A stretch of 64,000 bases of DNA from the IMG/VR virus record IMGVR_UViG_3300031772_002569, positions 1 to 64,000 of that record; one strand, written 5' to 3'. The stretch's first letter is position 1. Every line of letters begins with the position of its first letter. Position numbers and translations under genes: made by a program. The DNA comes from a virus. The notes under the pieces were generated by a model. That model was not told the DNA's origin. It did not search any database and saw nothing but the letters and a program-made list of their open reading frames with translations. This document shows, in pieces, positions 22,641 to 64,000 of this stretch.

Positions 22641-23153
22641 TTAGACTGTTGGAGATTCCGGTTTTTCAGAAGATTGCCGTGGAGATTGAACAAATGGATT
22701 TGGAATTTCGTGTGCGTCAATAGTATCATTTTCATACACGCCAATTCTTTCAAGAATCAATTCCAACTTTTCATAATTCATGAATTCAGAAAATCTAATT
22801 TGTAAACCTTCATTGTTATTGGCATTCTTTACTTTTCTTACAAAAACAACAGGAAAAGGTCGAGACACAGAAAAATAAATATCTTCAACAATATCAATAT
22901 CTTCAACAATATAATGACGTTGATATCCTTGTGTATTTGGATTCCATTTAAATCCCCATAATTCTAATGAATCTAAATGAAGTTGTTCAGTAACTTGTTG
23001 TCCATCGACTATAGGAGGAACAGGAGCCTTCATTTTAGTGAATCCCATATTCTTTAAAGCATCCAATTGGTCAGGAGTAAATGCATTAACATTGGATTCC
23101 AATAGTTCTTGGACCACTTCCTTTATTAATTTTTTGAATTCTGATTTTTTCAT
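22641..23153 (-). CDS. Hypothetical protein with N-terminal targeting-like peptide
   Basis: A 170-residue protein starting MKKSEFKKLIKEVVQELLES, an amphipathic helix ending in L-L-E before Ser. This matches the general build of the T4 capsid-targeting peptide with its gp21 cleavage site (L/I-x-E before A/G/S), and similar peptides recur in other genes here. The rest (LHLDSLELWGFKWNPNTQG, then a beta-rich DIDIVEDIYFSVSRPFPVVFVRK) is an unknown domain. Two genes with similar starts follow upstream, spaced 1-2 bases apart. Possibly an internal virion protein, by inference only. Confidence 0.6.
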   Translation of the reverse strand: MKKSEFKKLIKEVVQELLESNVNAFTPDQLDALKNMGFTKMKAPVPPIVDGQQVTEQLHLDSLELWGFKWNPNTQGYQRHYIVEDIDIVEDIYFSVSRPFPVVFVRKVKNANNNEGLQIRFSEFMNYEKLELILERIGVYENDTIDAHEIPNPFVQSPRQSSEKPESPTV

Positions 23154-23154
23154 A

Positions 23155-23412
23155 TTATCTGCTTCCCAAAGTATTCCCTGTTGCAGCGGCCCAGCTAGTT
23201 ATCTTTTCATTCCACTTTTGCCATCTAGCAGAGGAATATCCTTTTTTGTATCCCTCTTTAAAGTCATTGTCGGTTTTGTTTATATCAGTTTTTTCTTTGT
23301 CGAAATAATTACTCATTCCCAATCTATATCCTAAAATATATTGATGTGATTTTCCTGATACGTCCGACTTAACACTTTCGGATACTATGGATTTTAAGTC
23401 TGATCGTTTCAT
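23155..23412 (-). CDS. Small hypothetical protein with N-terminal targeting-like peptide
   Basis: An 85-residue protein starting MKRSDLKSIVSESVKSDVSG, similar in pattern to the start of its downstream neighbour. The middle, HQYILGYRLGMSNYFDKEKTD then FKEGYKKGYSSARWQKW, contains two G-Y-x-x-G/A repeats often seen in small alanine/glycine helical phage proteins. It lies 1 base from both neighbours. Function unknown. Confidence 0.55.
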   Translation of the reverse strand: MKRSDLKSIVSESVKSDVSGKSHQYILGYRLGMSNYFDKEKTDINKTDNDFKEGYKKGYSSARWQKWNEKITSWAAATGNTLGSR

Positions 23413-24585
23413 TTAAGCTTTGAACTTCGGTGTTTTTTTATCCTTAACAATCAATTTCTTATCGTTCTTATGTTTAGGCGGTTTAACTTTGTTATCCTTG
23501 TCGGTGAAGTCTCTTAAACGTTTTAATTTATCAACCTCCACGCTTTTCATTGGTTGGTTTGGCTGGTCGTCGTCTTCCTCGACATCCTTTTTGTTGTAAT
23601 CCTTTTCATCGTTCTTTGTATCGCCTACTTCTTTTCTTTTGGGTTTATCGTGTTGAGGAAGATCTCCTTTGTCTGATTGATCCTTCAAATGTCCCATTGC
23701 TTTTGCTTTGGCCGAATCAACCTTAGTATCTTCGACATCTTTGAAGTTAGCTTTTACAAATGCCTTTACTTGGTCCCAGTTCAATGCGATAGCACGAATT
23801 CTGTCATCAAGATTCACCATCGCTTCAATATCAAACAGATTCTCGCATGTCTGAGAAATACGAACACGGAAAAGAGCCTTTGCATCTACGTTTAAATCGT
23901 TGTGGTCATCCCAATACACCAAGAAATCTTTGTTTATTTCATTGACAATTTTACTTAATTCCTGTTCAAGCTGTAATCTGGTTAAACCCAATCGTTGATT
24001 TCCATCTTTGGAGTATTGTTTGTCTATTGTTTCTTTTTCTTCTTTGTTTAGTTCGGGAGTTGGAACACTCATTACTTCCGTCAATACCTTACTTACAATC
24101 TTTCGCAGAGACTCTTTCAATTGATTTTTCTGTGCAGATTTTTTCTCAAGGCGGACTTCATTCAAAGTCACTCTTATTAAATTTTTAAGTGTTTGTTTAT
24201 TCATTTTTTTATTCTCCTGAAATCTATCTCTCGGTTCATATTGAGTGGGGTCAATTGGTTTTTGTATGGTTTCAATTCCTGGTTTTAAATGTTTAGCAAC
24301 ATCATAGACATTCACACCTACTTCGGTTTTGTCATACATTGGACCCTTAATGGATTCTCCTGTGTTCGAGTCGATGTATCGAACAACTTGGTCTAAATTT
24401 TTAGCGTGTTTTTTATATTTTTCGGCTGCTTCCTCAAAAGAATTGACTTTCAATTTCTTCCATTCGACTGCAAATATTTTTCGTTCAACTTTTTCAAGAA
24501 TGTGTAATTTAGCCGAACTAAAGCTCGAAGCTCCACTTGGCTGCACCCTAACTTGTCTATCTATAATCAAAACATTATCGTTCAT
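23413..24585 (-). CDS. Hypothetical protein with internal start and two targeting-like helices
   Basis: The 390-residue frame starts at ATG 24585, preceded by a TATTTATA element. Residues 1-127 form an unknown domain (VLIIDRQVRVQPSGASSF, then KPIDPTQYEPRDRF). At M128 (ATG 24204) a Shine-Dalgarno AGGAG stands 9 bases upstream, and the sequence there (MNKQTLKNLIRVTLNEV) matches the start pattern of neighbouring proteins; a second such helix (QLKESLRKIVSKVLTEV) lies at about 155-171. The C-terminal third is highly charged Lys/Asp-rich. Full-length and 263-residue products are both plausible. Confidence 0.55.
   Translation of the reverse strand: MNDNVLIIDRQVRVQPSGASSFSSAKLHILEKVERKIFAVEWKKLKVNSFEEAAEKYKKHAKNLDQVVRYIDSNTGESIKGPMYDKTEVGVNVYDVAKHLKPGIETIQKPIDPTQYEPRDRFQENKKMNKQTLKNLIRVTLNEVRLEKKSAQKNQLKESLRKIVSKVLTEVMSVPTPELNKEEKETIDKQYSKDGNQRLGLTRLQLEQELSKIVNEINKDFLVYWDDHNDLNVDAKALFRVRISQTCENLFDIEAMVNLDDRIRAIALNWDQVKAFVKANFKDVEDTKVDSAKAKAMGHLKDQSDKGDLPQHDKPKRKEVGDTKNDEKDYNKKDVEEDDDQPNQPMKSVEVDKLKRLRDFTDKDNKVKPPKHKNDKKLIVKDKKTPKFKA
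24214..24218 (-). promoter_or_regulatory. Internal Shine-Dalgarno for a nested start
   Basis: AGGAG on the minus strand, 9 bases before the in-frame ATG at 24204-24202 inside the 390-codon gene. It is a better ribosome site than that of the full-length start, which has none. Confidence 0.5.
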
Positions 24586-24590
24586 ATTGT

Positions 24591-24598
24591 TATAAATA
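24591..24598 (-). promoter_or_regulatory. TATTTATA element 5 bases before ATG
   Basis: Sense-direction TATTTATA, ending 5 bases before ATG 24585, with no Shine-Dalgarno sequence between. Confidence 0.35.
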
Positions 24599-24607
24599 TT
24601 GATAACT

Positions 24608-25399
24608 TCAACTAAAAAACATATTTTCGGTCTTATTATCCACTCGAATTTCCTCTATTTCTTCTTTATATACAGTATTCTTTGGATATGATTGAAATGG
24701 GTGTTTTAGATTATTTAAAATATTCTTCTTTTTTATCTTATTCCCCAACAAATAGACGTATCTATGTTTGGTGGATTCTTTTTTCCTCCAAAACGTCTTT
24801 CCTATCGTTTTCTTTAAATGTTCTATATTATGTGACCCAAATGTTGAGAATGCTGTTCTTGAGTGCATCCATTTATAATTCGGTGGTCCTGATAATGATA
24901 TGGAGAAGTTAGGCATAAGGGCTAACGACGAATTACCCTGATAATAAAAGCCAGACGCTTGGTAGATGATTCCCCTGTGACCTTGTTCATTATCCGCGTA
25001 ACTTATGACGGCTTTGATTTTGGTCATGTCTCTTTTTAACAAAGATAGGGTATTCGATATACAATAACTTTCTATATTTCTTCCGTATCCGTCGTGAATA
25101 AACAAACGAGTAAGTTCTGTACATTCATTTATTTTAATTAGGGGAGATATTGATTCTGCTGCGCTTCTTCCTACAGGACCACCATAAATCACTGCACCAA
25201 TGAGTTTCACGGGTTTACAATCAAAAAATTCAGAAACATCTTCGGTATGATAATATATTCCGTAAGCTACATCACATAACGTCCATTTATGACTGTAATG
25301 ATATTTTTCTATTAATTCTCTAGCGGAAGACTTATCAATGGATTGTATAACAATCTTTGATGTATCTGTGTAACTTTCTTTTTCTTCGGATATAACCAT
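24608..25399 (-). CDS. Mom-like DNA-modification / acyltransferase-fold protein
   Basis: The 263-residue protein has AREYL-like ARELIEKYHYSHKW at about 25-38, then KLIGAVIYGGPVGRSAAESI, ELTRLFIHDGYGRNIESYCIS, KAVISYADNEQGHRGIIYQASGFYYQG. This order (YHYS, G-A-x-x-x-G-x-P, E-L-x-R-x-x-x-x-D, N-x-x-S, S-Y-A-D-x-x-x-G-H-x-G-x-x-Y-Q-A) is that of phage Mom proteins, a GNAT-like fold that in Mu adds a carbamoylmethyl group to adenine to block restriction. Length is close to Mu Mom (about 240). No com-like regulator is seen nearby. Confidence 0.7.
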   Translation of the reverse strand: MVISEEKESYTDTSKIVIQSIDKSSARELIEKYHYSHKWTLCDVAYGIYYHTEDVSEFFDCKPVKLIGAVIYGGPVGRSAAESISPLIKINECTELTRLFIHDGYGRNIESYCISNTLSLLKRDMTKIKAVISYADNEQGHRGIIYQASGFYYQGNSSLALMPNFSISLSGPPNYKWMHSRTAFSTFGSHNIEHLKKTIGKTFWRKKESTKHRYVYLLGNKIKKKNILNNLKHPFQSYPKNTVYKEEIEEIRVDNKTENMFFS

Positions 25400-25408
25400 G
25401 TATCTACA

Positions 25409-25708
25409 TTACACCAACCGTTCTAATTTCAACATATTTTTTAGTTCCGATTCGTTTTTATATACCATCAATTTTATATCAGGTTGCATACCATGAAGAT
25501 AATTTTTTAGAAATGTGGCTAATGATACAGAACCGTTTTGATGAATGAATCCAATTTTGTGTTTTTTAATCTTACCAAGATTTACATCTAATAATAGATT
25601 TTTGTAATCGGTGTAAGTTTTCATTACACAGTTATCGAAATTACCCACGTTTTTTACGGTATCTATATCTTCATCAACAATGAATACATGTGGTTTGGAG
25701 TTTTTCAT
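25409..25708 (-). CDS. Hypothetical protein with receiver-like fold
   Basis: A 99-residue protein whose start, KPHVFIVDEDIDTVKNV, looks like the first strand and acidic pocket of a response-regulator receiver, followed by alternating strands and helices (KIGFIHQNGSVSLATFLKNYL, DIKLMVYKNESEL). No phosphate-acceptor Asp or conserved Lys is evident, so any similarity is structural at best. It sits between the Mom-like and coiled-coil membrane genes, with gaps of 6-9 bases. Confidence 0.5.
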   Translation of the reverse strand: MKNSKPHVFIVDEDIDTVKNVGNFDNCVMKTYTDYKNLLLDVNLGKIKKHKIGFIHQNGSVSLATFLKNYLHGMQPDIKLMVYKNESELKNMLKLERLV

Positions 25709-25714
25709 AATTTC

Positions 25715-26083
25715 TTACTTATTTTCTAATTCATCTATTCGATGATTTTTTCTTGTTAATTCTTCTTGATAATTTTCTATAGTATTCTTCATCAAGACGG
25801 ATTCTTCCTTTAATCGTGTTAACAACTCTTCATTGTGTTCCAACTCAATCTTTAAGGCGTCGTTTTCCTTTTTGATTTTATCCGAGTCGGAGTGACATTT
25901 ATCGAGTTCTCCCCAAATGTGTTCTCTCATTTCTGATTCTGCTTTAGTCACTGCCTCTATGGCCTTTACCTGCATATCAGTCATTAATTTTGTTTGTTGA
26001 AGTCTCACTCGGCGGTTGGCAACCGCGTATGTCAAAACCAATGTTACCAGTGGTGGTAATAGTATTGTCAATAATTCCAACAT
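25715..26083 (-). CDS. Membrane-anchored coiled-coil protein
   Basis: The 122-residue protein has an N-terminal membrane helix (LLTILLPPLVTLVLTYAVA), then a long coiled coil to the end (residues about 30-120, rich in E, K, L, N). Single N-terminal anchor plus long periplasmic-type coil is the build of inner-membrane spanins, which help disrupt the outer membrane at lysis; no adjacent outer-membrane spanin or endolysin gene is visible, so this is only one possibility. A TATTTATA element lies 27 bases upstream. Confidence 0.5.
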   Translation of the reverse strand: MLELLTILLPPLVTLVLTYAVANRRVRLQQTKLMTDMQVKAIEAVTKAESEMREHIWGELDKCHSDSDKIKKENDALKIELEHNEELLTRLKEESVLMKNTIENYQEELTRKNHRIDELENK

Positions 26084-26147
26084 AAAAAATCCCCAGTCAT
26101 GCCCGTTTTTTATAAATATAATGGAATTATTCTAAAATCAAATGAGT

Positions 26148-30747: not shown

Positions 30748-30760
30748 TTAGTTGAGATAG

Positions 30761-45702: not shown

Positions 45703-46647
45703 TTATATTTGACCCGCGATCTTCTTGTTTAGGTCTTGACGTTGTTTTTCTAAATCAGGAATTTTATCTTTTCTCAAATTATCAACGTTTTTCTTCTGAA
45801 AAGTGAGTTCTTTTTTCTTGGAGTCCAAGTCTCTATCTACTTGTTTTTTTGATTTTTCTGCATCTATCTTTGCTTTCATTAAATCTTGCTCTGTATTTTG
45901 GCTGCTAAGATCAGTTGGAGTGACATCCCCTGCTGGCGTAGAAGAAACTGGAGGGGTGCCCATTAATTCTAATATACATTCTTTGATTAATGATTCAATA
46001 TATTCTTTTGTAATAGACGGTTCTTTTGTTGGGAATTCTACATCTCTAGCAGAAAATTTATCAACAAGAAGTTTGAATAAACTAGCATCAAACCAACCAA
46101 ATGCCCATTGAAAGAATTTTCTTTTATTGTCTTCGGATTGTGTGTTGGATCCTAATGCGTTTCTTACATCGGTTCCATTGATGTTTTTTCCATCTATTTT
46201 TACATCGTTAACAATGATGACGTATCCTCTTTTATCAGCCGTCTCCATGTTGTTTCTATTTGATTCATAAGGTTGATAATAGGCCAATGCACCCTTACGT
46301 GTGACCCATATTTCTTTTCCTTGTTTATCTAATTGTGTTCCACCTATCAATCTTTGTTTGTCTTTTTCTCCTAAAGCAAAAATTGCAGCCGCACCTGGAA
46401 ATTTACTAATTACTTCTACGGGAGTGTATCCGTTTTTTACCTGAACAACGTGACTGGAAGGGATTCCGTGTTTTACTAAAATCATTTCTTTTTCTGCAAA
46501 AGATAATGGAGAGTCGGGGAGTTCTACTTTATTTGATGTTACAACAAATGTATCAATTCCAACTAACTGTTTTAGTTGTTTATAAACCTCTAAATGTCCT
46601 CGGTGGGGAGGTTGAAATCTTCCTGTATAGATGCCTATGGTTTTCAT
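45703..46647 (-). CDS. Nucleotidyltransferase, NMN adenylyltransferase/cytidylyltransferase type
   Basis: The 314-residue protein starts TIGIYTGRFQPPHRGHLEVY with the H-x-G-H of the family, has LPDSPLSFAEKEMIL and NINGTDVRNALG near 155-165, the I-S-x-T-x-x-R equivalent. The first 200 residues are a complete HIGH-type domain, as in NadM and phage cytidylyltransferases. Then come a targeting-like helix (ITKEYIESLIKECILELMG, 212-230), a Pro/Ser linker and a coiled coil. Possible NAD synthesis, or activation of a small phosphoester; substrate not decidable. Confidence 0.7.
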   Translation of the reverse strand: MKTIGIYTGRFQPPHRGHLEVYKQLKQLVGIDTFVVTSNKVELPDSPLSFAEKEMILVKHGIPSSHVVQVKNGYTPVEVISKFPGAAAIFALGEKDKQRLIGGTQLDKQGKEIWVTRKGALAYYQPYESNRNNMETADKRGYVIIVNDVKIDGKNINGTDVRNALGSNTQSEDNKRKFFQWAFGWFDASLFKLLVDKFSARDVEFPTKEPSITKEYIESLIKECILELMGTPPVSSTPAGDVTPTDLSSQNTEQDLMKAKIDAEKSKKQVDRDLDSKKKELTFQKKNVDNLRKDKIPDLEKQRQDLNKKIAGQI

Positions 46648-47321
46648 TATGCTACATAGTTAGTTACTTCATAACTTCCTGTGGGCATTCTGTAGATACT
46701 TACATGAAGGTATTTTCTTGTTGGTTTGCCCTTATATTGTAAGAGTTTATAGTGTGCATCTTTGTGTTGTTCGTAATTAATTCCCCCATACATATAAGGT
46801 CCACGAACACCGTGTCTGTCATTATCTGTAGGTTCGTTTTCTTTTGGGTCAACCATGATTCTATTTTTGTCAACGAAATCTTCAACCGAACTCAGAGCGT
46901 CACTTAGAGTTCTTTGGAATTTAAATAAGTTTGTGGTTTCATCTATACCAGCGTTCTTATTTGTATATTTTAAAAATTTTCCTCCAGCTATATCATTCCA
47001 CACATTTCCTATTGGGTATGTAGAATTTTCGCCAACTAAATAAGTCTCATAATCGTTCAATGAAAATTGATCTTGAATGGCCAAAATTATTTGTCCAAAA
47101 TTTGGGTCATTCGATTTTCTTAATTCTAATTCCAATGTCTTATACGCTTGGTTCATGTTGGAAGTCCAATGATTTGTTTCATTGACAGGATCTTTGGCCG
47201 GCTGCGGTTCAATCATTGCGTGACTGTATCCAAGATTTTCTCTGATTATGGATTTAATTATCTCCTTTAATTCAACCCTTGATAATCTTGATGGTAGCGA
47301 TTTCATTTCTTTGTTCTTCAT
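46647..47321 (-). CDS. Hypothetical protein with N-terminal targeting-like peptide
   Basis: The 224-residue protein has LSRVELKEIIKSIIRENLG at residues 13-31, matching the amphipathic helix pattern seen in several other proteins here. The rest is a helical domain (TYPIGNVWNDIAGG and LSDALSSVEDFVDKNRIM) and a beta end (TRKYLHVSIYRMPTGSYEVT). No family recognised. A TATTTATA lies 7 bases upstream of its ATG, and it overlaps the next gene as TAATG. Confidence 0.6.
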   Translation of the reverse strand: MKNKEMKSLPSRLSRVELKEIIKSIIRENLGYSHAMIEPQPAKDPVNETNHWTSNMNQAYKTLELELRKSNDPNFGQIILAIQDQFSLNDYETYLVGENSTYPIGNVWNDIAGGKFLKYTNKNAGIDETTNLFKFQRTLSDALSSVEDFVDKNRIMVDPKENEPTDNDRHGVRGPYMYGGINYEQHKDAHYKLLQYKGKPTRKYLHVSIYRMPTGSYEVTNYVA

Positions 47322-48035: not shown

Positions 48036-49535
48036 ATGAAAAAAGACCCTATTATAAAAACTTGTAACTTCTGTGAAAAAGAATACGAGATACCTCATAG
48101 AAAAAGAAGTATGGCTTCCACACGTCGGTTTTGTTCTAAGTCTTGTTCCAATAAAAGCCCTGATGTGATTGAAAAGATAAAACAGAAACAGTTGGAAACA
48201 TATCAGGAAAAATACGGTGTTAGTCATCCCATGAAAACTAAGGAAGTTGTTTCTAAGTTCAAATCATCGATGAAGGAAAAATATGGAGTAGAACATGCTT
48301 TATGTTCTTCTGAGTTTTTAGAAAAATCACATGCCACAAAACTAAAAAAATATGGTGATGTTAATTTTAATAACGTCGAAAAAATGAAACAAACTTGTCT
48401 GAAGCTTTATGGTGTAGATAATATAAGAAAATCCAAGGATGTTGTTGATATGATAAACACGACTGTAATGGATAAACATTTTGATTATCTTATTAAGGTG
48501 TGTAAAGAATGTAATATCGCTCTTCTTTTTAATCGAAAAGAATACGTTGGGTATCATTTTACAAATTCATACAAGTTTAAGTGTGAAGTTTGTGATAATG
48601 AATTTTCTAATTCTGTATATCATCTTTCAAATTTGTATTGTAACAAATGTCATCCGGATAAACGTTTAAAATTGGAGGGATCGTTTTTTGAATTTTTGAA
48701 ATTGATTGTTCCATCTAACATAGAAATTAAAAGAAGAGATAGGGCTATCTTGTATGGAAAGGAATTAGACTTTTTTATTCCATACAAAAAGATATCATTT
48801 GAAATTAATGGTCTTTACTGGCACAGTGAATGTTCAGGTAATATATCAAAAAACTACCATCTCAACAAGACTAAGAATTGTTTGTTTCACGGAATAAAGT
48901 TAATGCATATTTTTGAAAATGAGTGGATAGAAAAATCGGATATAGTAAAATCCATAATAAGATCAACACTGGGTTATCAATCCAATAGGATTTATGCGAG
49001 GGAATGTGTGGTGGGAGAAGTTTCCATAGTTGATAAGAATAAATTTCTCAATAACAATCATCTTCAAGGAGAAGACAAATCAACCATAAAGTTGGGTCTG
49101 TATAAAGATGATGAATTGATGTCAATCATGACCTTTAGAAGAACGTCCAGGTTTGACAAGGATGTAGAATGGGAGTTATCTAGGTTTTGTAATAAGTTAG
49201 AATATTCCATCGTCGGTGGAGCTAGTAAGTTGTTTTCTCACTTTGTTGAAAATCATCATCCAAAATCTATAGTTAGTTATAGCGACCGACGATATTTTAG
49301 CGGAGAAATTTATTCCATTCTTGGGTTTAATTTTATACACAATACTCCACCAAACTATCACTATGTAACAGATGGATATAAAGGGATAAAAAATAGGATG
49401 TCATTTCAAAAACACAAATTAAAAAACATATTACCTATTTTTGATGATGGTCTGTCGGAGTGGGAAAATATGAAAAAGAATGGATTCGATAGAATCTGGG
49501 ATTGTGGACACTCTAAATGGATATTTAAATCTTAG
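48036..49535 (+). CDS. Free-standing homing-type endonuclease with Vsr-like nuclease domain
   Basis: The 499-residue protein on the strand opposite to its neighbours has an N-terminal C-x-x-C region, three or more K-Y-G-V/D repeats (TYQEKYGVSHPMKTKEVV, KEKYGVEHALCSSE, KKYGDVN, LYGVDNI) that probably read DNA, a C-x-x-C zinc site, then a Vsr/EDxHD-like nuclease: GKELDFFIPYKKISFEINGLYWHSE (D244, E256), IKLMHIFENEWIEKSDIV, IYARECVV, NHLQGEDKSTIKLGLY, YSDRRYFSGEIYSILGF. Such genes are mobile by homing. It overlaps the next minus gene by 11 bases. Confidence 0.8.
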   Translation: MKKDPIIKTCNFCEKEYEIPHRKRSMASTRRFCSKSCSNKSPDVIEKIKQKQLETYQEKYGVSHPMKTKEVVSKFKSSMKEKYGVEHALCSSEFLEKSHATKLKKYGDVNFNNVEKMKQTCLKLYGVDNIRKSKDVVDMINTTVMDKHFDYLIKVCKECNIALLFNRKEYVGYHFTNSYKFKCEVCDNEFSNSVYHLSNLYCNKCHPDKRLKLEGSFFEFLKLIVPSNIEIKRRDRAILYGKELDFFIPYKKISFEINGLYWHSECSGNISKNYHLNKTKNCLFHGIKLMHIFENEWIEKSDIVKSIIRSTLGYQSNRIYARECVVGEVSIVDKNKFLNNNHLQGEDKSTIKLGLYKDDELMSIMTFRRTSRFDKDVEWELSRFCNKLEYSIVGGASKLFSHFVENHHPKSIVSYSDRRYFSGEIYSILGFNFIHNTPPNYHYVTDGYKGIKNRMSFQKHKLKNILPIFDDGLSEWENMKKNGFDRIWDCGHSKWIFKS

Positions 49536-51864
49536 AGTCAATAAATACTTCCAAGTGGTCACATACATATCCTTTGGTTAGACTCTTGGATTTATCTCCG
49601 AATTCACCGTTTTTTGAAGTCGTGGACATTCTGTGTAATTCTTTTCGTAAAGCGTCCCTATATGGGCCTGAATCGGTTTTTACCCACCATCCTTTTTTAT
49701 CCAGTATGTTTTCTTCCTTTACATGTTCACCTAGATGGTGCCACAATGGTCCCTCGTATGTGAATTTCTTACGTGATGAATTGGTGTATAAAAACGTATC
49801 GTATTTTTCTTCCCACGACTTATCATCATCCGCATCTACATCCACGCCTTTTTTCGCTCTTTGAAAAGACCAAGGAGATCCTTCTTCTTTGTCTGTTAAT
49901 TTTTTATAATCAGGATGTTGATTAGTTATTTTGTTTCCTTCTTTGTCTTTGACGTATTGTGTTCTTTGTCTCTGTCCTTTTCCTCTACTCTTCGGATCTG
50001 TGAATTCGCTTCCTCCTAACAGAAATTTTTCTATGTAAGGCCACACAAATGCGTAAATACCTTTTTTGGATGGAGGTTGATGGAATGTGGAATCTTCTTC
50101 TCTTCCTCCTTTATATCCTTTTTGCTTTGTTAAACTTAATCCACCGTAAGTTACAAACGTTAACTTTTTATCTTTAAATGGATTATGTTTTTCCTCTTTT
50201 ATTCCTGTTTTTAATTTGAATGATGGACAGTGCATAGAATGTTTTAACGTATCCGATGAATCGATACTGCTTTTGTGTTTTTTAATGATTCTTCCTGTTT
50301 TGTTTTTTATCCAAATAGATGCTGATTGTTTAATTTCATCATCTGGATTACCCCACCAAAAAATGAAATCTGAATCCTCTCTCCATCTCCACCTGTCATC
50401 GTTTCTGTTATATCCAGGTACTTGAAAATGAGTCAAAACTTCGTCTGACGAATTTATTGCTTTAACGTTATAGTCATTATCCACGGTTCCTACCCATATT
50501 CGAGTTTTGTTTTCTTTATTTTCTTTCAGTGAAGCTTTTTTGTCATACAACTGATTAATTCCGTCTCTCAATTTTTTAAGTTGGCCAAATTGTCTCAATG
50601 ACTTGAAAACTATATTTTCATTACTAAATTCTCCCTTGGAACTAAGCCCCACTTCTCGGTATGCAGTGATAGATTTCATTAATTCTTTAAGGTTTTCTAA
50701 GTCTTCTGACTCTAATGAGGATTTTATCTTGTGACAAATTTGGTGGTATTTTTTCTTTATTAATCCTCTATCGAGTTGTATGTTTTGTTTTTCTGGTTCT
50801 TTAACCCATTCATCAGTCAATACTGAATAGACTCCTATTGAACGATTGTTGTCGCCTAAATCTTGTATATAAACTTCTACATTATGACCCTTTATTCTTA
50901 TCGATTCGTGTTCTGTGTTCCATCTGAATCCATAATTATTCATTATTTTTCTTACATATTCCGGATCAATTTTTTCCTTAGATATGTCAACGACTATATG
51001 AAGATCTATGTCGCTGGAGGGAGTCCAGTTGTAGTTTGCTGAAGAACCTAAAAATAGTATGTCCTCTATTCCTTGTTTTAAATCTGTGTTTTTATAGAAA
51101 TCACTGGCTACACTTAACAAGCTTTTTCTTACTTCTGGTCTAAGTTTATTTTCATCATTCCAAAGATTTTTATCTAAACTTTTATTTACCACTCTCATTT
51201 TGGATTCTGCAATAGAACCTTTCATGTAATTGGCTTGAGCTATGCTTTTATAGTCTCCTTGTGCTTGTATTTTTTTTGCGTATGAATTTTTAATATTACT
51301 CTCTAATTCATCGTCAGTCATTCCTACACTTTGTTGTAACGATTTTATCTTTTTTCTTAGAATTATTTTTTCGTCTGGAGTAGCAGTGTGTAATTGTATG
51401 ATTAATGATATTAACTCTTTTCTGATATCCTGACTCATTTCCTTTGAATTTGTAGTAATTTTTGGTTTCCATTTTTCTAGGTATCTACTATTCGAAAATT
51501 CCCAATCAAATTCTTTTATGTTTAATCGTAATTTTTTAAACATATCCTCTATTACTTGATGATATTTATAGGTAGTTTCTCGGCTATCATATACCGATGC
51601 TATATAATTTTCCGGCCACATGCGACCACATACTAATTCTTTAGAGTAGTCTGAGGGGTCTATTGAATCTCTTAACGATTCGTGCCATCCATGAATGTAA
51701 TCAGTACTGGTATGGATACATTTTATTTGTGTATCAGAACCATTACGTGATTGATATACCAAGAAAGCAACATTCGGCTTTTGGTCTGAACAACTTATTA
51801 TTTCTTCTCCATTGAACGAGACTGTATCCGGATCTTCTTTTAAGATGGGGACTTTTGTATGCAT
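49525..51864 (-). CDS. Large protein with nucleotidyltransferase domain
   Basis: The 779-residue protein has a central MNT-type nucleotidyltransferase: LFLGSSANYNWTPSSDIDLHIVV with G273-S274 and metal Asp285 and Asp287; E330 in HNVEVYIQD may be the third acidic residue. Before it lies a 250-residue part with a possible acidic helix pair; after it comes a long part with tryptophan-rich segments (VPGYNRNDDRWRWREDS) and a Lys-rich end. No partner HEPN gene is next to it. It may modify a host RNA, protein or small molecule. Confidence 0.6.
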   Translation of the reverse strand: MHTKVPILKEDPDTVSFNGEEIISCSDQKPNVAFLVYQSRNGSDTQIKCIHTSTDYIHGWHESLRDSIDPSDYSKELVCGRMWPENYIASVYDSRETTYKYHQVIEDMFKKLRLNIKEFDWEFSNSRYLEKWKPKITTNSKEMSQDIRKELISLIIQLHTATPDEKIILRKKIKSLQQSVGMTDDELESNIKNSYAKKIQAQGDYKSIAQANYMKGSIAESKMRVVNKSLDKNLWNDENKLRPEVRKSLLSVASDFYKNTDLKQGIEDILFLGSSANYNWTPSSDIDLHIVVDISKEKIDPEYVRKIMNNYGFRWNTEHESIRIKGHNVEVYIQDLGDNNRSIGVYSVLTDEWVKEPEKQNIQLDRGLIKKKYHQICHKIKSSLESEDLENLKELMKSITAYREVGLSSKGEFSNENIVFKSLRQFGQLKKLRDGINQLYDKKASLKENKENKTRIWVGTVDNDYNVKAINSSDEVLTHFQVPGYNRNDDRWRWREDSDFIFWWGNPDDEIKQSASIWIKNKTGRIIKKHKSSIDSSDTLKHSMHCPSFKLKTGIKEEKHNPFKDKKLTFVTYGGLSLTKQKGYKGGREEDSTFHQPPSKKGIYAFVWPYIEKFLLGGSEFTDPKSRGKGQRQRTQYVKDKEGNKITNQHPDYKKLTDKEEGSPWSFQRAKKGVDVDADDDKSWEEKYDTFLYTNSSRKKFTYEGPLWHHLGEHVKEENILDKKGWWVKTDSGPYRDALRKELHRMSTTSKNGEFGDKSKSLTKGYVCDHLEVFIDSKI

Positions 51865-52664
51865 TACTTACGGGATTTTATTCCCTTGATTTTCTTGGAT
51901 TTTACAGACTCTCCCATTCCATTATTGGCATAATATTTTTCTGCATGGGATAGACTGTCTTCGTGACACGATGGGCATAATGTGGATGATGTTCCTGGAT
52001 GTATTTTCTTTCCACATTTTTTACATTTTCCACTCTTTATAGCTTGTTGTGTTCTATCTTTTTCTGATTGATTTGAATCCTCGCCTAATCTGTTCCCTTC
52101 AATTAATTCATCAATCCGACTCTGTATTAATCTTGAAGCGTGGTCAATGTCATAAGTAGAAGCGGTTTTTGAATTTTTTACCAACCAATATGCAGCACTT
52201 TGAATCTGCATCATTAAGTTTAGTTTTTTACCCTTCTCGTGATCGTCGTTTTCTTCTTGAATTACCTCTTGAACCAATTGTGTTATTACCTCTTTTAATG
52301 TGGTAGTTGCATCACCTGGTTTGCTGCTAACTTTGTATTCTTCAGAATTTGGTTGTTCACCCCAATAATGAACGTCACCGTGTTCTTCAGCTAACGATAA
52401 ATCTTTCTTTCCATACATTTCTTCGTATGCAGTCTTTAAATCTACAGCGGGAGATTTTGGATCACGGACATGAAATATCTTATTGGTTAATGGAACATTT
52501 CTTTGAATTTCGGTTTTACCGGCCGGCAACTCAACCTCTACGGCAGCCGTCCTATTGTCTGGGTTCATTTCTATCTTTTTAATAGAAAATGTTTGTGGTC
52601 TTAATCCAGTGGTAACTATGAAAATCTTATTATACTGTTGTGAGGATGGTCTTATTGGTATCAT
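51864..52664 (-). CDS. Hypothetical protein with zinc ribbon and targeting-like helix
   Basis: The 266-residue protein has a small beta-rich N-terminus (KIFIVTTGLRPQTFSIKKIEM), a targeting-like helix TTTLKEVITQLVQEVIQEEN at 120-139, a helical part, and a zinc ribbon CKKCGKKIHPGTSSTLCPSC near 220-240. It ends in a basic SVKSKKIKGIKSRK. It overlaps the nucleotidyltransferase gene by 1 base (TAATG). Function unknown. Confidence 0.6.
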   Translation of the reverse strand: MIPIRPSSQQYNKIFIVTTGLRPQTFSIKKIEMNPDNRTAAVEVELPAGKTEIQRNVPLTNKIFHVRDPKSPAVDLKTAYEEMYGKKDLSLAEEHGDVHYWGEQPNSEEYKVSSKPGDATTTLKEVITQLVQEVIQEENDDHEKGKKLNLMMQIQSAAYWLVKNSKTASTYDIDHASRLIQSRIDELIEGNRLGEDSNQSEKDRTQQAIKSGKCKKCGKKIHPGTSSTLCPSCHEDSLSHAEKYYANNGMGESVKSKKIKGIKSRK

Positions 52665-53798: not shown

Positions 53799-54548
53799 TT
53801 AAAAACCTTCTCCTTTATTACTTGCATCAACGATTCTCTTTATTTCATTTCCGGAATGTTGAATCAGTGATTTTAATCCAAAATGTAAAGGAGATGGCCA
53901 CCGTCCATATTCTACCCACTTATATTTATCTGTTTCCCAATTTAATTTTGGGTCAAATTCGTCATCTACAACGGCTAAGAAATTGTGATATTGGAATCCG
54001 GATTTTTGGTCTTTGTAAACATACAACGGAATAAGTTTTTCAATTATTCCCCTAAACCCTACTTCTTCGGATGCTTCTCTTGATACAGCCTGTGATGGAT
54101 TTTCACCCGAGTCAATTGCACCACCCCACACACCCCAAGTTTCAGGTTGTAAAACCATAGCTGATCTCAACGGCAAAAGAAGTCGTCCGGTGGTTTTTGC
54201 CATAAAAATACAACCAGCTCCCTGTTTTCCCCAAAAGCCCGTTTTGACCAAAGCATCTCCGTGTTCTGAATCGGATTCTTTTAGGACTCCTGAAATCTTA
54301 TCAACCAACGCATCATATTCAGTATCCTCAGGTTCTTCTTGGTATTCTTTTTCTAACACATCTCTAGCTTTTTGTAATGCACGAAATACATCCAATCGGT
54401 CATTTGTCTTCAACGCACGGTCGATAAACTGAACAGCGACCTGCATATCCAAAATAAAGTCTGCCACGGAATCATCCGCCACCGATATCATATCCATTAG
54501 TTGTTCCTTAGCCTCGGCAAGTAATTCTATCAATTCATCGTTTGTCAT
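53799..54548 (-). CDS. Nudix hydrolase-domain protein
   Basis: Start taken at ATG 54548, in an ATGA overlap with the upstream gene and with GGAAAGG before it; an ATG five codons earlier is less likely. The 249-residue protein has a helical N-terminus (MTNDELIELLAEAKEQLMDM, again of targeting-like pattern) and a Nudix domain from about 100 with GCIFMAKTTGRLLLPLRS, WGVWGGAIDSGENPS and the Nudix box G-x5-E-x7-R-E-A-S-E-E-V-G-F at 143-165. Nudix enzymes cleave nucleoside diphosphates linked to another group; the substrate here is unknown. Confidence 0.8.
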   Translation of the reverse strand: MTNDELIELLAEAKEQLMDMISVADDSVADFILDMQVAVQFIDRALKTNDRLDVFRALQKARDVLEKEYQEEPEDTEYDALVDKISGVLKESDSEHGDALVKTGFWGKQGAGCIFMAKTTGRLLLPLRSAMVLQPETWGVWGGAIDSGENPSQAVSREASEEVGFRGIIEKLIPLYVYKDQKSGFQYHNFLAVVDDEFDPKLNWETDKYKWVEYGRWPSPLHFGLKSLIQHSGNEIKRIVDASNKGEGF

Positions 54549-55639
54549 GTCAACCCTTTCCAATCTCCAACTATTTTTTCATCCCAATACAGAATGTTTA
54601 CAATTTGTTTGTTTCTGAAAAACGGATGTGATTTAATATAATCATCAACTTTAGGGTTATGATGCCAAGAAGAATGTTTTGTATCGTCGGAAATCATAAC
54701 CTCAATCTCCTTACCCCTAACTACGTAAATTAATATAGAAACGTAATCCGCGTCAATACGTTTTCCAAGAAAATTTCTAACTTGATAATGATATGCGACC
54801 ATTCGATTCCACACATAGGCATTTTTGCCTGAAATAATCAATCCATACTGGTCATGTGCTACACATTCTTTTACCTCCCTATCGGTTGGGTCTATAAAAA
54901 CTTCTACATAATCTGACTTGCCGGCGATGTTTGTCGTGAAAGAACTCAAAAACGATTCCCCTATGGTTCCCAGATTATGGATTCCCTTCGCCTGATAATC
55001 TCTTATGTCATTTAAAGTGGAATCCCCACCTTCTACGAACCAACGAGACATAGAACCCAGGCCATGAATAAAATTCAAAAGTTGGTCCATTTTTATAATT
55101 TTCTTTTCTGGCTCCCGTTCAGACTCAACACCAACAGCTATTTTATACAAAGTCCTACTCCTATCGCTATACCTACCATTTCCTCCGGATTCCATCTCTC
55201 CAGTGTTTCTAAACCTGTTGGAACCCGACTTATCAGATATAAAAACGAACCACCTATCCCATTCCTCTTCTGTTATATCTTTGTATTCATCCTTTTCAAA
55301 AAAGCTAGCAGCCGCATTACCATCTTTTATATCACTGTTGATTAAAATTTTAATGATTGTAGTTCTAAGAATTGACCAAATCTTTTCTAATAACTTATCA
55401 TCAACCCTACTATATTTTACAAATTTTGCCCAAACCAATTTCAAATCCCTCGCCGGAACCAACTTCCAAGATTGATGTTTTTGACCAGATTGAAATTCTT
55501 GCCTAACATCTTCCTCGACATCCGTGAAATCCCTCACTAACTCACGTGCATGGGGGTTATGACCACCGATATTAAGATGAAGTTGATCAGATTCACCAAT
55601 ACACTGGTCAACCATCTTTTGTAATTCAGATTTTTTCAT
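54545..55639 (-). CDS. Hypothetical protein with N-terminal targeting-like peptide
   Basis: The 364-residue protein starts MKKSELQKMVDQCIGESDQ, with I-G-E before Ser as possible cleavage site, like the T4 capsid-targeting peptide. The rest has ELVRDFTDVEEDVRQEF, WKLVPARDLKLVWAKFVKYS, TTNIAGKSDYVEVFIDPTDRE and KNAYVWNRMVAYHYQ. No family recognised. A TATTTATT lies 5 bases upstream of the ATG, with no ribosome site. Confidence 0.55.
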   Translation of the reverse strand: MKKSELQKMVDQCIGESDQLHLNIGGHNPHARELVRDFTDVEEDVRQEFQSGQKHQSWKLVPARDLKLVWAKFVKYSRVDDKLLEKIWSILRTTIIKILINSDIKDGNAAASFFEKDEYKDITEEEWDRWFVFISDKSGSNRFRNTGEMESGGNGRYSDRSRTLYKIAVGVESEREPEKKIIKMDQLLNFIHGLGSMSRWFVEGGDSTLNDIRDYQAKGIHNLGTIGESFLSSFTTNIAGKSDYVEVFIDPTDREVKECVAHDQYGLIISGKNAYVWNRMVAYHYQVRNFLGKRIDADYVSILIYVVRGKEIEVMISDDTKHSSWHHNPKVDDYIKSHPFFRNKQIVNILYWDEKIVGDWKGLT

Positions 55640-60383: not shown

Positions 60384-60387
60384 AATA

Positions 60388-60861
60388 TTATTTCTGTCTT
60401 TCCACTAATGACAACTTAGACAATCTCGAATAATGAGTATTAACAATAATTGAATGGGATTTTTCTGCAATTCCACCCAAAAACTGTTCTTGAACAACAT
60501 TATCAATTTCATGATATCTATTGTTAAATTGAATTATATCTCCATTTTCTGGATAAATATTTACAAGTTGCAACATTTTTTCACGAAGCTTAAATACTAC
60601 TGTTTGGTTTCTATCAGAACCAAAATCGTCGAACGAAGTATCAATATCAGCCCTATCAACTAACGCCGTAATTTCTACTCCGGGATAATACATTTTTCCG
60701 GATTCAGGAGACGACTCTCCATACACATTCACTTTAATTTGTTGTGCACAGATTTTGAACAACAATACTTCAGTTTGAATAATTTCCCCCATCAATTCTC
60801 CATTAAAAGAATTGATTAAGTTTATATCCCTATCACTGAAAAATCTCCCTAATAATCCCAT
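60388..60861 (-). CDS. Neck / head-closure protein (T4 gp14 position)
   Basis: The 157-residue protein reads DINLINSFNGELMGEIIQTEVLL, KVNVYGESSPESGKMYYPG, DDFGSDRNQTVVFKLREKML, ENGDIIQFNNRYHEIDNVVQEQFLGG. This order occurs in small head-to-tail proteins of T4-like marine phages and fits a head-closure role, but it is much shorter than T4 gp14 (256). It stands between the neck adaptor and the tail terminator genes, one transcript, with 3-4 base gaps. Confidence 0.55.
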   Translation of the reverse strand: MGLLGRFFSDRDINLINSFNGELMGEIIQTEVLLFKICAQQIKVNVYGESSPESGKMYYPGVEITALVDRADIDTSFDDFGSDRNQTVVFKLREKMLQLVNIYPENGDIIQFNNRYHEIDNVVQEQFLGGIAEKSHSIIVNTHYSRLSKLSLVERQK

Positions 60862-60864
60862 ATA

Positions 60865-61380
60865 TTACTTAGGTAAACTTACTGTTCCGTCATGCATATC
60901 AATGAGTTCTTCTGCTAATTTTTTAATCCTCGCATAAGTCTTATCATTACTATTCCCCCAAGCAATCCTATCACTCATAACCTCTAAAATCTCTTTTCCA
61001 ATTTGGAGTTCACGGCTTTCCTCCGGATTTGACATGTCGGTTTCATCATGATGAACTGATTGAACTGCTTCAACCGCTTCAACTGATTCGCTGTTACCTT
61101 CTGACTTAACGAACATCTCATTCAATTCATTATCAGAGTAATTAAATTCCTTAGCAATCTTCTTAGCTTCTTGTAAAGCGTGTCTTCGTGCTCCAGCAAT
61201 GTCTTTGATGAAACCCAAACCAACACCAACACACTCTATTTGACTATAGGAGACACTTTTTTCGCCGTTGGAAAACACTCGTTTAATTCCTGAACAAACG
61301 GTAGATTCATCCACTCCTTCAGTTAATAACACAAATCGGTTTCCATTTACGTTTTCGAACAATCTTTCTTTATTTTTCAT
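60865..61380 (-). CDS. Hypothetical protein in neck operon
   Basis: The 171-residue protein has a double-stranded RNA-binding-like segment: SYSQIECVGVGLGFIKDIAGARRHALQEAKKIAKEF, where G-x-G-x-S/x-x-x-x-A...A-x-x-x-A is the late part of that fold, then an acidic linker and a helical end (QIGKEILEVMSDRIAW, RIKKLAEELIDM). No homologue recognised. It lies 3 bases from the neck gene and 7 from the next small gene. Confidence 0.55.
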   Translation of the reverse strand: MKNKERLFENVNGNRFVLLTEGVDESTVCSGIKRVFSNGEKSVSYSQIECVGVGLGFIKDIAGARRHALQEAKKIAKEFNYSDNELNEMFVKSEGNSESVEAVEAVQSVHHDETDMSNPEESRELQIGKEILEVMSDRIAWGNSNDKTYARIKKLAEELIDMHDGTVSLPK

Positions 61381-61387
61381 AATTACT

Positions 61388-61618
61388 TTATTTTCTTTTG
61401 TTTTGTTGTTTTAATATTGTTAAAGCTTCTTTACAAGCTTGGTTAAACATATCCCTACTTGGGGAGTCCGCTCTAAAATTTGTCTTCAATAAATCGTAAG
61501 CCCTGCCGATATCGCCACTCACAAAATCGGATTCTTCTTCTACGTTTTGGACCATACTATTGACCCAATTTATCCAATTCTGGTCCTTTATCTCTTTTAC
61601 GATAGGTAATAGTTTCAT
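61388..61618 (-). CDS. Small helical hypothetical protein
   Basis: A 76-residue protein, mostly helical: LPIVKEIKDQNWINWVNSM, GDIGRAYDLLKTNFR, CKEALTILKQQNKRK. No family recognised. A TATTTATA lies 9 bases before the ATG, within the end of the neck adaptor gene, which stops one base before. It probably belongs to the neck operon. Confidence 0.55.
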   Translation of the reverse strand: MKLLPIVKEIKDQNWINWVNSMVQNVEEESDFVSGDIGRAYDLLKTNFRADSPSRDMFNQACKEALTILKQQNKRK

Positions 61619-61619
61619 A

Positions 61620-62789
61620 TTATCCTATATAAATAAGCAATGGAACTCTCTTTAATGTATCTTGAACGAATTCAGCCTCCCTAGCGCGATCTTCCATTTG
61701 TTGTTTCTTGCCAGTGGCCTCAAGACTTTCCCTCAACTCGGTTATATATTTTTCTTTTTCCTGTTGTGCTTCATTTCTAAGTTCCGCACCATCGAGAGTA
61801 ACCTCTCCTCCAGGAATAGGAATGGTTTGGTATTTTTGTCTAATTGAACCAAGTAGTTCCTTACATAGAGCAAGAAAATACTTCCTAATCCATTGCTTAC
61901 TAACATCGTTGATAGATCCATACACGATGTTATTATATGGAATATTTGAGAAATCGGATACAAATTGTCCAGCAGAACCAGATTGGAAAGACCCGCTAAA
62001 TCGTTCATTCTTTACGACATAATCGAAATATATACGAAACTGACTCTGAGGTATAGGAAACAATCTTAATTTATTGTTGACTATTTCAAAGGAAAAAGCA
62101 GACTTACGAACCATATCATTGAATTCAATAGCTTGACCACGAAGCAAATCTTCGAAAATAGGAGTCATAAGAAACTGAACAGCGGGAGAATATGCACCAA
62201 ATCCCAACTCATTCAAAACATTAGAATAACTCATACCAGTCATGGAGAATGGATCGTAAATACGAGCCATAGCAGGAGTTCTTTCATTAAAAACCCTCAT
62301 CACATCGATTTTATTAAAACTTTCAGATACGTTACCCCACAAGGATTGAATGTCGTATGTTTGTTGATATGGAACAGTTGTAATAGATCCGCGTTTCCAA
62401 TCGGTATTTCCACCAACACCAACTTCTGTTCCGTATCCCTTTGCCAACTCCACGATAACAGACATTGGGGTTCCGGTTACGTTTTGTCCGGACAAATTAC
62501 CTATTTGATTAATATTCTGTCCTTGAAATACCTGAATGTAATTACGAATATTGAACTGATTTAACTGAGCACCAAACTCATTGACAGCTTCTTCAAAACA
62601 CGCATAGAAATTTTTATCCAACATTTCTATATCAACAACGGGATATCCCAACCTCAAAGCTGCCCATACAGCCGCGCCCATCGCGTCTGATTGAAATTCT
62701 ATATCAGAATCATAAATTCCGAATGGTGTGCTGCTAGAGACTGCCGAACCGGACCCGGGCCACCTCACCCTATCTTGGTCAATTAACAT
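61620..62789 (-). CDS. Neck protein (T4 gp13-like)
   Basis: The 389-residue protein joins head and tail. It has LDKNFYACFEEAVNEFGAQL, NIRNYIQVFQGQNI, NKLRLFPIPQSQFRIYFDYVV, VSKQWIRKYFLALCKELLGSIRQKY and PIPGGEVTLDGAELRNEAQQEKEKYITELRE. The last block (P-x-P-G-G-x-x-x-L-D/N-G-x-x-L) is typical of gp13-type neck proteins and T4-like relatives. Length is close to T4 gp13 (309), with extensions. An upstream homing-type endonuclease gene overlaps its start by 7 bases. Confidence 0.7.
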   Translation of the reverse strand: MLIDQDRVRWPGSGSAVSSSTPFGIYDSDIEFQSDAMGAAVWAALRLGYPVVDIEMLDKNFYACFEEAVNEFGAQLNQFNIRNYIQVFQGQNINQIGNLSGQNVTGTPMSVIVELAKGYGTEVGVGGNTDWKRGSITTVPYQQTYDIQSLWGNVSESFNKIDVMRVFNERTPAMARIYDPFSMTGMSYSNVLNELGFGAYSPAVQFLMTPIFEDLLRGQAIEFNDMVRKSAFSFEIVNNKLRLFPIPQSQFRIYFDYVVKNERFSGSFQSGSAGQFVSDFSNIPYNNIVYGSINDVSKQWIRKYFLALCKELLGSIRQKYQTIPIPGGEVTLDGAELRNEAQQEKEKYITELRESLEATGKKQQMEDRAREAEFVQDTLKRVPLLIYIG

Positions 62790-63760
62790 ACAACCCCCTT
62801 ATTATCAGATACATACATCATATTATGATTGAATTTTTTGATAGGAAAAACTTTGGTTTTATCTTTATTCCAATCATACCAATCTTTTTCCCACATATAA
62901 TAAATATGATAACCTAATTCGTTTAATCTATTAAACTTTTTGATTGTGTTATCATATAATTCTCCAAAAGTTTTATGACATTTTTTATTAAATTTAGAAT
63001 GTTCATATCGTATGGGATTTCCATGATAGTAATCTCCTAAGAATTCATAAATCTTTTTTCCTTTTATTCCATCTACTTTAAACGGATGAATTACCTTTTG
63101 TCGATTTTCTATCAAATCAGGTATTCTAATATAGTTTAAAAATTCAATTTCTGGTTTAGATATTTGTGTGACACATTTTAAACATCCCTTTCCTTCCATG
63201 TGTCCCCTCGCTCTCTGATAAAACCATCCATGAATAGGACATTTTATTTTGACTTTAGTTCTATTATTGATATAATTTACTTGGGAATAGTCATACTTGT
63301 TTTTGTGAATAATGTATGATTGTTTTATAAATTCATCTTTAGTCAATCTTACAGTTCCACCACACAACGGACATCCATCTTCATTTAAATGATCATTTGG
63401 AGATTGTGAAAATTTTCCGTGTAATTTACATATAATTACCACCTTTTCCCTATTATTATCACCATATTTAACAAATGAATAATCATACTTATTTGTATGA
63501 CATTTAACTGCTTTTTTTATAAATGATTCTGTAGTATCTCTAAATTTAATAGATAATTTTTGATTCTTACACTTTGGGCAACCACTTTTTTTACCAATAT
63601 GATTATCAGAAGAAACCATAAAAGTTCCGTGAATTTTACAACAAACTTGTAACTTCAATCTAGCAGAAACATAGATTGTATTAGAATAGTCATATTTTTT
63701 GTTGTGAACTTCTTTAGATCTCTTTATAAATTCCTCTGTAGTTATTCTTGATTTCATCAT
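62783..63760 (-). CDS. Homing-type endonuclease with three zinc-finger repeats
   Basis: The 325-residue protein has three repeats of about 60-65 residues, each with HNKKYDYS (or HTNKYDYS, HKNKYDYS), a C-x-x-H-G pair and a late C-P-x-C (or C-L-K-C) pair, the DUF723-like DNA-binding module of phage endonucleases. The C-terminal part (about 205-325) starts SKPEIEFLNYI and has GIKGKKIYEFLGDYYHGNP and NELGYHIYYMWEKDW, a Vsr/PD-(D/E)xK-like nuclease. It overlaps the neck gene start by 7 bases, as if inserted just before it. Confidence 0.75.
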   Translation of the reverse strand: MMKSRITTEEFIKRSKEVHNKKYDYSNTIYVSARLKLQVCCKIHGTFMVSSDNHIGKKSGCPKCKNQKLSIKFRDTTESFIKKAVKCHTNKYDYSFVKYGDNNREKVVIICKLHGKFSQSPNDHLNEDGCPLCGGTVRLTKDEFIKQSYIIHKNKYDYSQVNYINNRTKVKIKCPIHGWFYQRARGHMEGKGCLKCVTQISKPEIEFLNYIRIPDLIENRQKVIHPFKVDGIKGKKIYEFLGDYYHGNPIRYEHSKFNKKCHKTFGELYDNTIKKFNRLNELGYHIYYMWEKDWYDWNKDKTKVFPIKKFNHNMMYVSDNKGVVC

Positions 63761-63790
63761 AAATAAGTAGTCATTAGGGTTATCTCAACG

Positions 63791-63798
63791 TATTTATA
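63791..63798 (+). promoter_or_regulatory. TATTTATA element before the last + gene
   Basis: Sense-direction TATTTATA, 20 bases before ATG 63819. Being on the + strand with its + gene, it supports that the element is directional. It would also read as TATAAATA toward the endonuclease gene. Confidence 0.35.
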
Positions 63799-63818
63799 GA
63801 TGATGAATTATATTATCA

Positions 63819-64000
63819 ATGAAAATTATATTATACAATTTAATAAATGAGATTTTGTTAGAAACATCCGACGCAAAATCCACCTTCATTCTCGGTAGAG
63901 TTTCCGATGATGGAGAGGTTGACAAATGGGAATTTGATGATACGGTAACTGCCACACATCCTTCGACTTGGTATTCAAGTCACTATGAACGTTGGAGATA
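63819..64000 (+). CDS. Hypothetical protein, N-terminal part
   Basis: An open frame from ATG 63819 that runs out of the window. The visible 60 residues start MKIILYNLINEILLETSDAK, an amphipathic helix ending in L-L-E like the targeting-type peptides here, then a beta-rich FILGRVSDDGEVDKWEFDDT with an aromatic TWYSSHYERW. No family recognised. It diverges from the endonuclease gene. Confidence 0.5.
   Translation, partial: MKIILYNLINEILLETSDAKSTFILGRVSDDGEVDKWEFDDTVTATHPSTWYSSHYERWR

Follow-up and report, generated by a model that had tools for sequence, protein, structure and literature searches.

Phage T4 is known to carry only a handful of cargo proteins under a capsid-targeting sequence (CTS), and it injects Alt, an ADP-ribosyltransferase. 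In the T4 protein IPIII (MKTYQEFIAE|A), mutagenesis identifies residues 4 and 7 as the main determinants of targeting and residues 8 and 10 as those of processing; a protein with Asp at position 10 is targeted but remains uncut, and the cleavage site of gp21 lies after L/I-x-E (PMC9026906). The first 10 residues are likewise removed from T4 gp24 (PMC9958956). The present analysis concerns a 64,000-nucleotide stretch of viral DNA (the window), bases 1-64000 of the 74,030-base record IMGVR_UViG_3300031772_002569, in which a first-pass annotation had noticed an amphipathic peptide ending in (L/I)xE on unrelated proteins from 22641 onward and had likened it to the T4 CTS. A comparison with relatives reveals that the shared, position-specific peptide signal is real and that, as judged from sequence, it matches the T4 CTS in every feature that sequence can test. 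The peptides are probably T4-type capsid-targeting propeptides, which would direct proteins into the head and be cut by gp21.

The sheath (55721), tube (47417) and tape measure (42202) of the window are presumably T4-like tail genes, named from sequence and established knowledge, and a UvsX-like RecA (32037) is among the replication genes by RecA/UvsX homology. A relative, IMGVR_UViG_3300019458_000020 (G001; 250,813 bases), shares the gene order of the window and has a sheath 83% identical to its sheath; the head genes are also on G001, which encodes the gp23 capsid protein and an S77-family prohead protease of the gp21 type (Peptidase S77, E 2e-23). Among cultured phages, those closest by capsid protein are Microcystis phage Mel-JY01 and the Flavobacterium phages vB_FspM_immuto (immuto; 54-55% identity). 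The proteomes of the window record, G001, immuto, Mel-JY01 and T4 constitute the five-proteome set used below.

The short tag and its register

A simpler tag underlies the peptide of the first-pass annotation, which is a longer and frequently tandem version of it. This simpler tag stands out best immediately past the window end, in a run of eight consecutive plus-strand genes with unrelated bodies from 63819 to 69689. The first gene (63819-65588) begins MKIILYNLINEILLE|T, six others begin MIKLKNLIDEN, MIKLKTLVTEN, MIKLKSLLTEN, MIKLKDILLES, MISLSKILSEE and MIKLRDLILEG, and gene 66435 carries no tag. The proteins of this run include a CCA-type nucleotidyltransferase with an HD domain, a T4-type lysozyme, two 2H-phosphoesterase-like proteins and a GNAT domain joined to an ADP-ribosyltransferase-like domain. 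Tagged genes are located in the structural gene region. Both forms of the tag share the core phi-x-x-phi-phi-x-Glu, in which phi is hydrophobic; the long form, exemplified by KSEFKKLIKEVVQELLE, often consists of two cores in tandem, such as FKKIIKE-C-IKEVLAE in G001.

The short tag, MIKLKxLLxE, occupies residues 1-10, within the 10-19 residues of a short N-terminal propeptide, with hydrophobic residues at 4, 7 and 8 and Glu at 10, which is the register of IPIII; the long form lies at residues 6-20 or internally and has the same spacing starting at 6. The N-terminus of T4 gp24 (MAKINELLRE|S) is in the same register. A scan of the T4 proteome with the core gives 16 matches, including IPII, IPIII, gp24 and gp68, and the method therefore finds known substrates.

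The core is strongly concentrated near the N-terminus. In the five proteomes it starts at residue 4 in 27 proteins and, as the long form, at residue 6 in 15, versus 2.3 per position further in, and no positional peak appears when the Glu is swapped for Asp, Lys, Asn or Gln. In 79 loci chosen only by gp23 homology the counts are 64 and 40 over a background of 3.3, which ties the tag to phages of the gp23/gp21 type; the Asp version of the core gives 1, and the Asn version is raised at residue 4 (37), which fits the start of the capsid protein itself. Selection by a MI-polar-hydrophobic start only yields 102 proteins, with L/I at residue 7 in 89 and L/I/V at residue 8 in 88; Glu occupies residue 10 in 55 of them and residue 9 in 24.

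The same preference is observed throughout IMG/VR, where Glu and Asp versions were compared by copies per locus and by open frames, their totals not being comparable. MIKLKx-phi-phi-x-Glu is found in at least 119 loci, at least 26 of them with 2-5 copies, and 150 of the 156 matches listed are open frames of at least 50 residues; for the Asp control, 2 of 120 loci are multi-copy and 63 of 122 matches are open frames, among the matches listed. At least 84 body families are present in the Glu set. The N-termini of terminase, a baseplate-cluster protein and the capsid protein also match the core; these belong to conserved bodies, the first two of them not plausible as cargo, and they were rejected as cargo tags.

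Interchange of tag forms, fused proteins and predicted protease sites

That the window peptide and the short tag are signals of one kind is argued mainly by their swapping on homologous bodies. Window protein 54545 (proteins are named by their first coordinate) starts with the long form MKKSELQKMVDQCIGES, and its homologue L003_8 (45% identical) starts with the short MIKLADIIYES; a search for more homologues of 54545, by alignment or with the single protein, found none. Similarly, MIKLKHLITE of L065_9 corresponds to MKKSQLRQIIKE of immuto protein 191, the short tags of L069_17 and L115_4 to GKVNKAYIENIIKE of immuto 187, and MIKLLDILAE of L221_7 to MENFDLKKFLVE of immuto 3. In immuto, which grows on Flavobacterium sp. 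LMO8, proteins 3, 40, 41, 176, 178, 179, 187, 191, 194 and 195 are among those tagged.

Proteins that are separate and tagged in some phages are fused in others. Protein 54545 contains in one chain the equivalents of L003_8 (first part) and L009_15 (second part, MIKLKSLIPE|S), which are separate tagged proteins in other phages. Its counterpart G001_58 has an added ADP-ribosyltransferase-like domain, which in L003 is a separate tagged gene (MMIKLKNLIGE|N), and the lysozyme that has its own tagged gene in the window record is fused to GNAT in G001. The border peptides in the fused proteins of the 54545 type are TIGE|S, TISE|K and KDLVAE|N. A related cassette in L378 (IMGVR_UViG_3300029985_000074) adjoins the sheath gene; a full tag starts six of its nine consecutive genes, and it includes split versions of proteins that are fused in the window record.

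The residue aligned with the last Glu of the tag is retained in many fused proteins. It is Glu in 29 of 55 family pairs over a background of 7% (p 6e-19), in a test whose BLAST queries began after the tag, so that the Glu had no part in finding the match; with one pair per tagged family, the count is 17 of 36 (p 1e-10). A second test on 52 pairs, which excluded doubtful families, several with N-termini of the terminase, baseplate-cluster or capsid type, gives Glu in 50% at the aligned position and in 0-23% at other offsets. A hydrophobic residue stands at -2 in 54%, versus 13-38% elsewhere, whereas positions -3 and -6, the counterparts of residues 7 and 4 in T4 targeting, show no enrichment. 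The inner borders thus appear to keep what gp21 requires and not what targeting requires. Additionally, the core lies within the first 22 residues in 42 of 108 fused proteins, versus 14% of all proteins.

Predicted sites in other substrates of the protease, namely the capsid protein, the scaffold and gp21, share the cutting motif. At the presumed propeptide border of the capsid protein, Glu is invariant in 37 of 37 aligned sequences; before it stand two aliphatic residues and then a variable one, after it mostly Ala or Ser, and this presumed site fits phi-phi-x-Glu. Most copies of the protein begin M-(S/E)-(D/N)-(I/V)-K-x-L-L-T-N, with the 4, 7, 8 register of the tag, which points to a shared binding surface on the core for tag and capsid protein; the first peptide, in which position 10 is usually Asn, is probably bound but uncut there. 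In the N-terminal region of gp21, the predicted sites are FKGLLTE|S in immuto and VQKIIKE|S in Mel-JY01. The scaffold-like proteins are predicted to be cut at the ends KEILSE|G, KEIISE|V or KKILNE|S, which are followed by a conserved KLAGI peptide. A further tag-like N-terminus, RMQ(F/K)LAGIITE, is found on immuto proteins 41 and 188 (L046 25061-25456 and L045 11675-12139). It resembles the conserved C-terminal R-x-x-KLAGI-x-K of the scaffold-like protein encoded upstream of gp23 in G001, immuto and Mel-JY01, and cargo may in this way imitate the scaffold's own tail.

The tagged bodies are diverse. Pfam matches on 121 tagged IMG/VR proteins, among the matches listed, comprise Zeta-toxin/AAA (4), ADP-ribosyltransferase exoenzyme (ADPrib_exo_Tox; 2), RNase T (2), cell-wall hydrolase (2) and single matches to Nudix, HD, NT5C, Mom, SprT and others, and most proteins are without a family. 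G001_124, encoded beside the terminase gene, begins with MIRLKSLLQE, and its match to PARP exceeds the Pfam cut-off. The model of the tagged domain of L378_6 (mean predicted local distance difference test score, pLDDT, 73) resembles Tpt1/KptA RNA 2'-phosphotransferases (E 2.7e-5); its likeness to DarT and PARP is weaker. Tagged proteins would accordingly include Alt-like cargo at the level of predicted fold. ADP-ribosyltransferase-like signatures, taken as counts from a loose regular expression, occur in 9 of 99 tagged families versus 11 of 819 untagged ones (p 8e-5). An AlphaFold model of 54545 had a mean pLDDT of 43 and was not used. The tagged 2H-phosphoesterase-like protein at L001 6368-6910 has a match to anti-CBASS Acb1 (E 7e-4) that is below the Pfam cut-off.

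Tag instances within the window

The first-pass annotation had named nine proteins, and the peptide is recognizable in most of them, with 23155 and 53799 weak. Its literal consensus proved too narrow, being fully matched once only, in 23413. A grouped seven-position pattern, whose residue groups were set after the peptides had been seen, is fully matched by exactly 22641, 23413, 45703, 46647, 51864 and 54545; shuffling each protein in 20-residue blocks, which keeps local composition, gives 0.3 +- 0.6 full matches, with a maximum of 2 in 60 trials. The equal frequency in shuffled sequence that the first-pass annotation had set as a refutation is not seen. The same six proteins are among the top-ranked in the whole proteome by a weight matrix built from relatives only, with E<0.03 for 22641 and 46647, 0.08 for 51864, 0.19 for 23413, 0.21 for 45703 and 0.7 for 54545; of these six, 22641 and 23413 alone are represented by orthologues in the seed set.

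The instances below are on the minus strand unless stated. Protein 22641-23153 carries the long-form tag FKKLIKEVVQELLES at its N-terminus (23094-23138, residues 6-20; MKKSE-FKKLIKE...), and its G001 orthologue carries MKKHEIKALIKETIREVLKG. The N-terminus of protein 23155-23412 has the weak tag LKSIVSESVKS (23365-23397; E about 5), which is the stronger MKRDELKQVIKEIITTDL in the G001 orthologue. Both copies reported in gene 23413-24585 are present: LKNLIRVTLNEV (24154-24189, residues 133-144), which fits the literal consensus, and LRKIVSKVLTEV (24073-24108, residues 160-171), which includes VSKVLTE. Their position is corrected, as the tag is probably N-terminal because an AGGAG site precedes Met128 and the G001 orthologue (gene 26) begins there; this probable true start lies at 24202-24204, with CAGGAGAATAAAAAA upstream.

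Protein 45703-46647 has the internal tag IESLIKECILELM after a cytidylyltransferase-like domain (45961-45999, residues 217-229), and protein 46647-47321 has LKEIIKSIIRENL near its N-terminus (47232-47270, residues 18-30), a peptide that sits between two domains in the G001 relative (ELKEIIKSLIRENLGYSH). The internal tag LKEVITQLVQEVIQE (52254-52298, residues 123-137) is found in protein 51864-52664, which has a C-terminal zinc-ribbon by a weak Pfam match. The Nudix protein 53799-54548 has the weak tag LIELLAEA (54510-54533), and its G001 relative starts without a tag. Protein 54545-55639 combines the N-terminal long-form tag LQKMVDQCIGES (55589-55624, residues 6-17) with the internal site TIGE|S (54956-54967, residues 225-228), at the border where the separate homologue L009_15 begins. 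A candidate tag, LLPIVKE (61592-61612), lies at the N-terminus of protein 61388-61618; in the homologue G001_71, MKIYKLKDLIVE precedes a longer body. On the plus strand, LYNLINEILLE (63831-63863) lies at the N-terminus of the CCA-type nucleotidyltransferase and HD protein, which extends past the window end; the tag of this supposedly partial gene qualifies, and the gene is complete (63819-65588) in the 74,030-base record.

Several neighbouring features were also observed. On otherwise unrelated proteins, a module some 70 residues long (...W(V/I)G-V-D-D-D...) is found repeatedly, directly after tags or short Glu-ending stretches (window 49525-51864 internally, L001 1819-3588, G001_74, G001_76 and L087:1857), and no family was found for it. 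An AAA ATPase gene and, after it, the gene of a large VWA-type protein (19345-22555), a MoxR/chelatase-like pair by sequence reading, adjoin the tagged genes 22641-24585. Free-standing endonuclease-like genes, also by sequence reading, lie among the structural genes at 48036-49535 (plus), opposite in strand to its neighbours, and 62783-63760 (minus). In G001, the portal gene (G001_122; L036) and the ribonucleotide reductase gene (G001_30) both look intein-interrupted, with an extra internal segment; the reductase has 1099 residues there versus 658 in the window, where the gene looks uninterrupted.

Interpretation and comparison with known systems

The proposed likeness to the T4 CTS is borne out by the 4/7/8/10 register, the specificity for Glu, the presence of gp21 and gp23 in the relative, the presumed capsid site and the phi-x-Glu of the junctions. 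The mechanism that best explains these results has as its basic unit the 10-residue N-terminal M-I-K-L-K-x-L-L-x-E, in which hydrophobic residues 4 and 7 would bind the scaffold core of the prohead and the (L/I)-x-E end would be cut by the phage's gp21 prohead protease. The long peptide, (K/R)xxL-K-x-L-I-K-E-x-I-x-E-V-L-x-E, would be a two-unit version placed a few residues further in and sometimes internally at a domain border. Tagged enzymes would be built into the core, be freed by gp21 during digestion of the scaffold, stay in the head with the DNA and then be injected to act in the host. For fused cargo, a single targeting tag at the front would suffice, the inner borders keeping only the residues for cutting by gp21, and the fused protein would be cut into separate enzymes inside the head.

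Several points weigh against this mechanism. The gp21 protease was looked for and not found in the window's own incomplete 74-kb record, and gp21 and gp23 are known from the relative G001, not from that record. Proteins 23155 and 53799 (E about 5 each by the weight matrix) are indistinguishable from chance on their own, the (L/I)xE of some tags near the N-terminus is imperfect, the Glu is missing from about half of the fused junctions, and the residue after the cut (P1') is not limited to small residues. The core is short and degenerate: the terminase large subunit and the product of a baseplate-region gene have conserved N-terminal helices that fit it. Virion proteomics, N-terminal sequencing and packaging data for these phages, including immuto and Mel-JY01, were not found in the literature searched.

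The tags could target and be cut with the proteins serving as core fillers, degraded or retained in the head and not injected, as T4 gp67 and gp68 are core proteins chopped by gp21 (PMC9026906) and immuto protein 200, adjoining gp21, has the long peptide internally. This is unlikely, given that the bodies are catalytic with no known structural role (lysozyme, 2H phosphoesterases, CCA-type nucleotidyltransferase, GNAT, ADP-ribosyltransferase-like, Zeta-toxin/AAA and Nudix) and that the cargo set differs between phages, as that of the T-even internal proteins does. Uncut amphipathic helices that dock accessory proteins on the tail, baseplate or neck, the final Glu being an ordinary helix residue, are very unlikely: tail genes (45.7-61.6 kb) do surround most window instances, and a similar helix starts a baseplate-cluster gene of G001, immuto and Mel-JY01, but the strong contrast of Glu and Asp at one fixed position, the register identical to those of the T4 CTS and gp24, and fused junctions that keep phi-x-Glu and not the rest of the helix argue otherwise. 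That the shared start is a linker of recombination or translation initiation, passed between genes as DNA and functionless in the protein, is hardly credible: stops and starts do overlap within the compact runs of tagged genes, and genes are reshuffled, but the multi-copy and open-frame signal holds for GAR and not GAY codons at position 10, which indicates selection on the amino acid, and the inner junctions retain residues and not gene-start DNA.

With capsid targeting as the preferred reading, the balance tips slightly toward a wider proposal, in which a large group of environmental T4-like phages has modular cargo, with one interchangeable tag on tens of unrelated enzymes per genome and fused cargo as polyproteins that bear a targeting tag at the front and gp21 sites at the inner borders, such that the head matures and the injected enzymes are armed in the same proteolytic step. 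If the tag works as in T4, the injected proteome of many uncultured T4-like phages could be read straight from sequence, and many small phage proteins without assigned function could be placed inside the head and assigned to the first minutes of infection. The question of what phages deliver besides DNA would resolve into a set of proteins open to testing, among them ADP-ribosyltransferase-like folds and phosphoesterases with possible roles in host takeover or against defence, and several new targeting peptides would be available for loading proteins into phage heads.

Among known systems, the head propeptides of phiKZ and SPN3US are similar in that ejected head proteins carry an N-terminal propeptide cut after Glu; these propeptides are usually much longer, with an S-x-E or A-x-E motif and a protease of the S80 family. 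A propeptide of this type is ruled out here, as the third residue before the cut (P3) is L/I/V and the protease matches S77. The T4 gp24 and gp23 propeptides are close, gp24 having the register of the tag, but both belong to shell proteins. The T4 CTS (IPI, IPII, IPIII and the Alt propeptide, cut by gp21) has the same N-terminal 10-mer organization, with hydrophobic or aromatic residues at 4 and 7, a hydrophobic residue at 8 and Glu at 10, and shares the disfavour of Asp, the S77 protease and gp23 in the same phages and an ADP-ribosyltransferase-like fold in the cargo, for which Alt is a functional parallel by fold. The consensus is MIKLKxLLxE here and MKTYQEFIAE in T4, tens of genes are tagged per genome versus about four in T4, and the enzymatic cargo, the long two-unit form, the predicted inner cut sites in fused cargo and the less restricted P1' also differ. 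Relative to T4, the tags would form a variant of the CTS on a much larger scale and with a more modular build.

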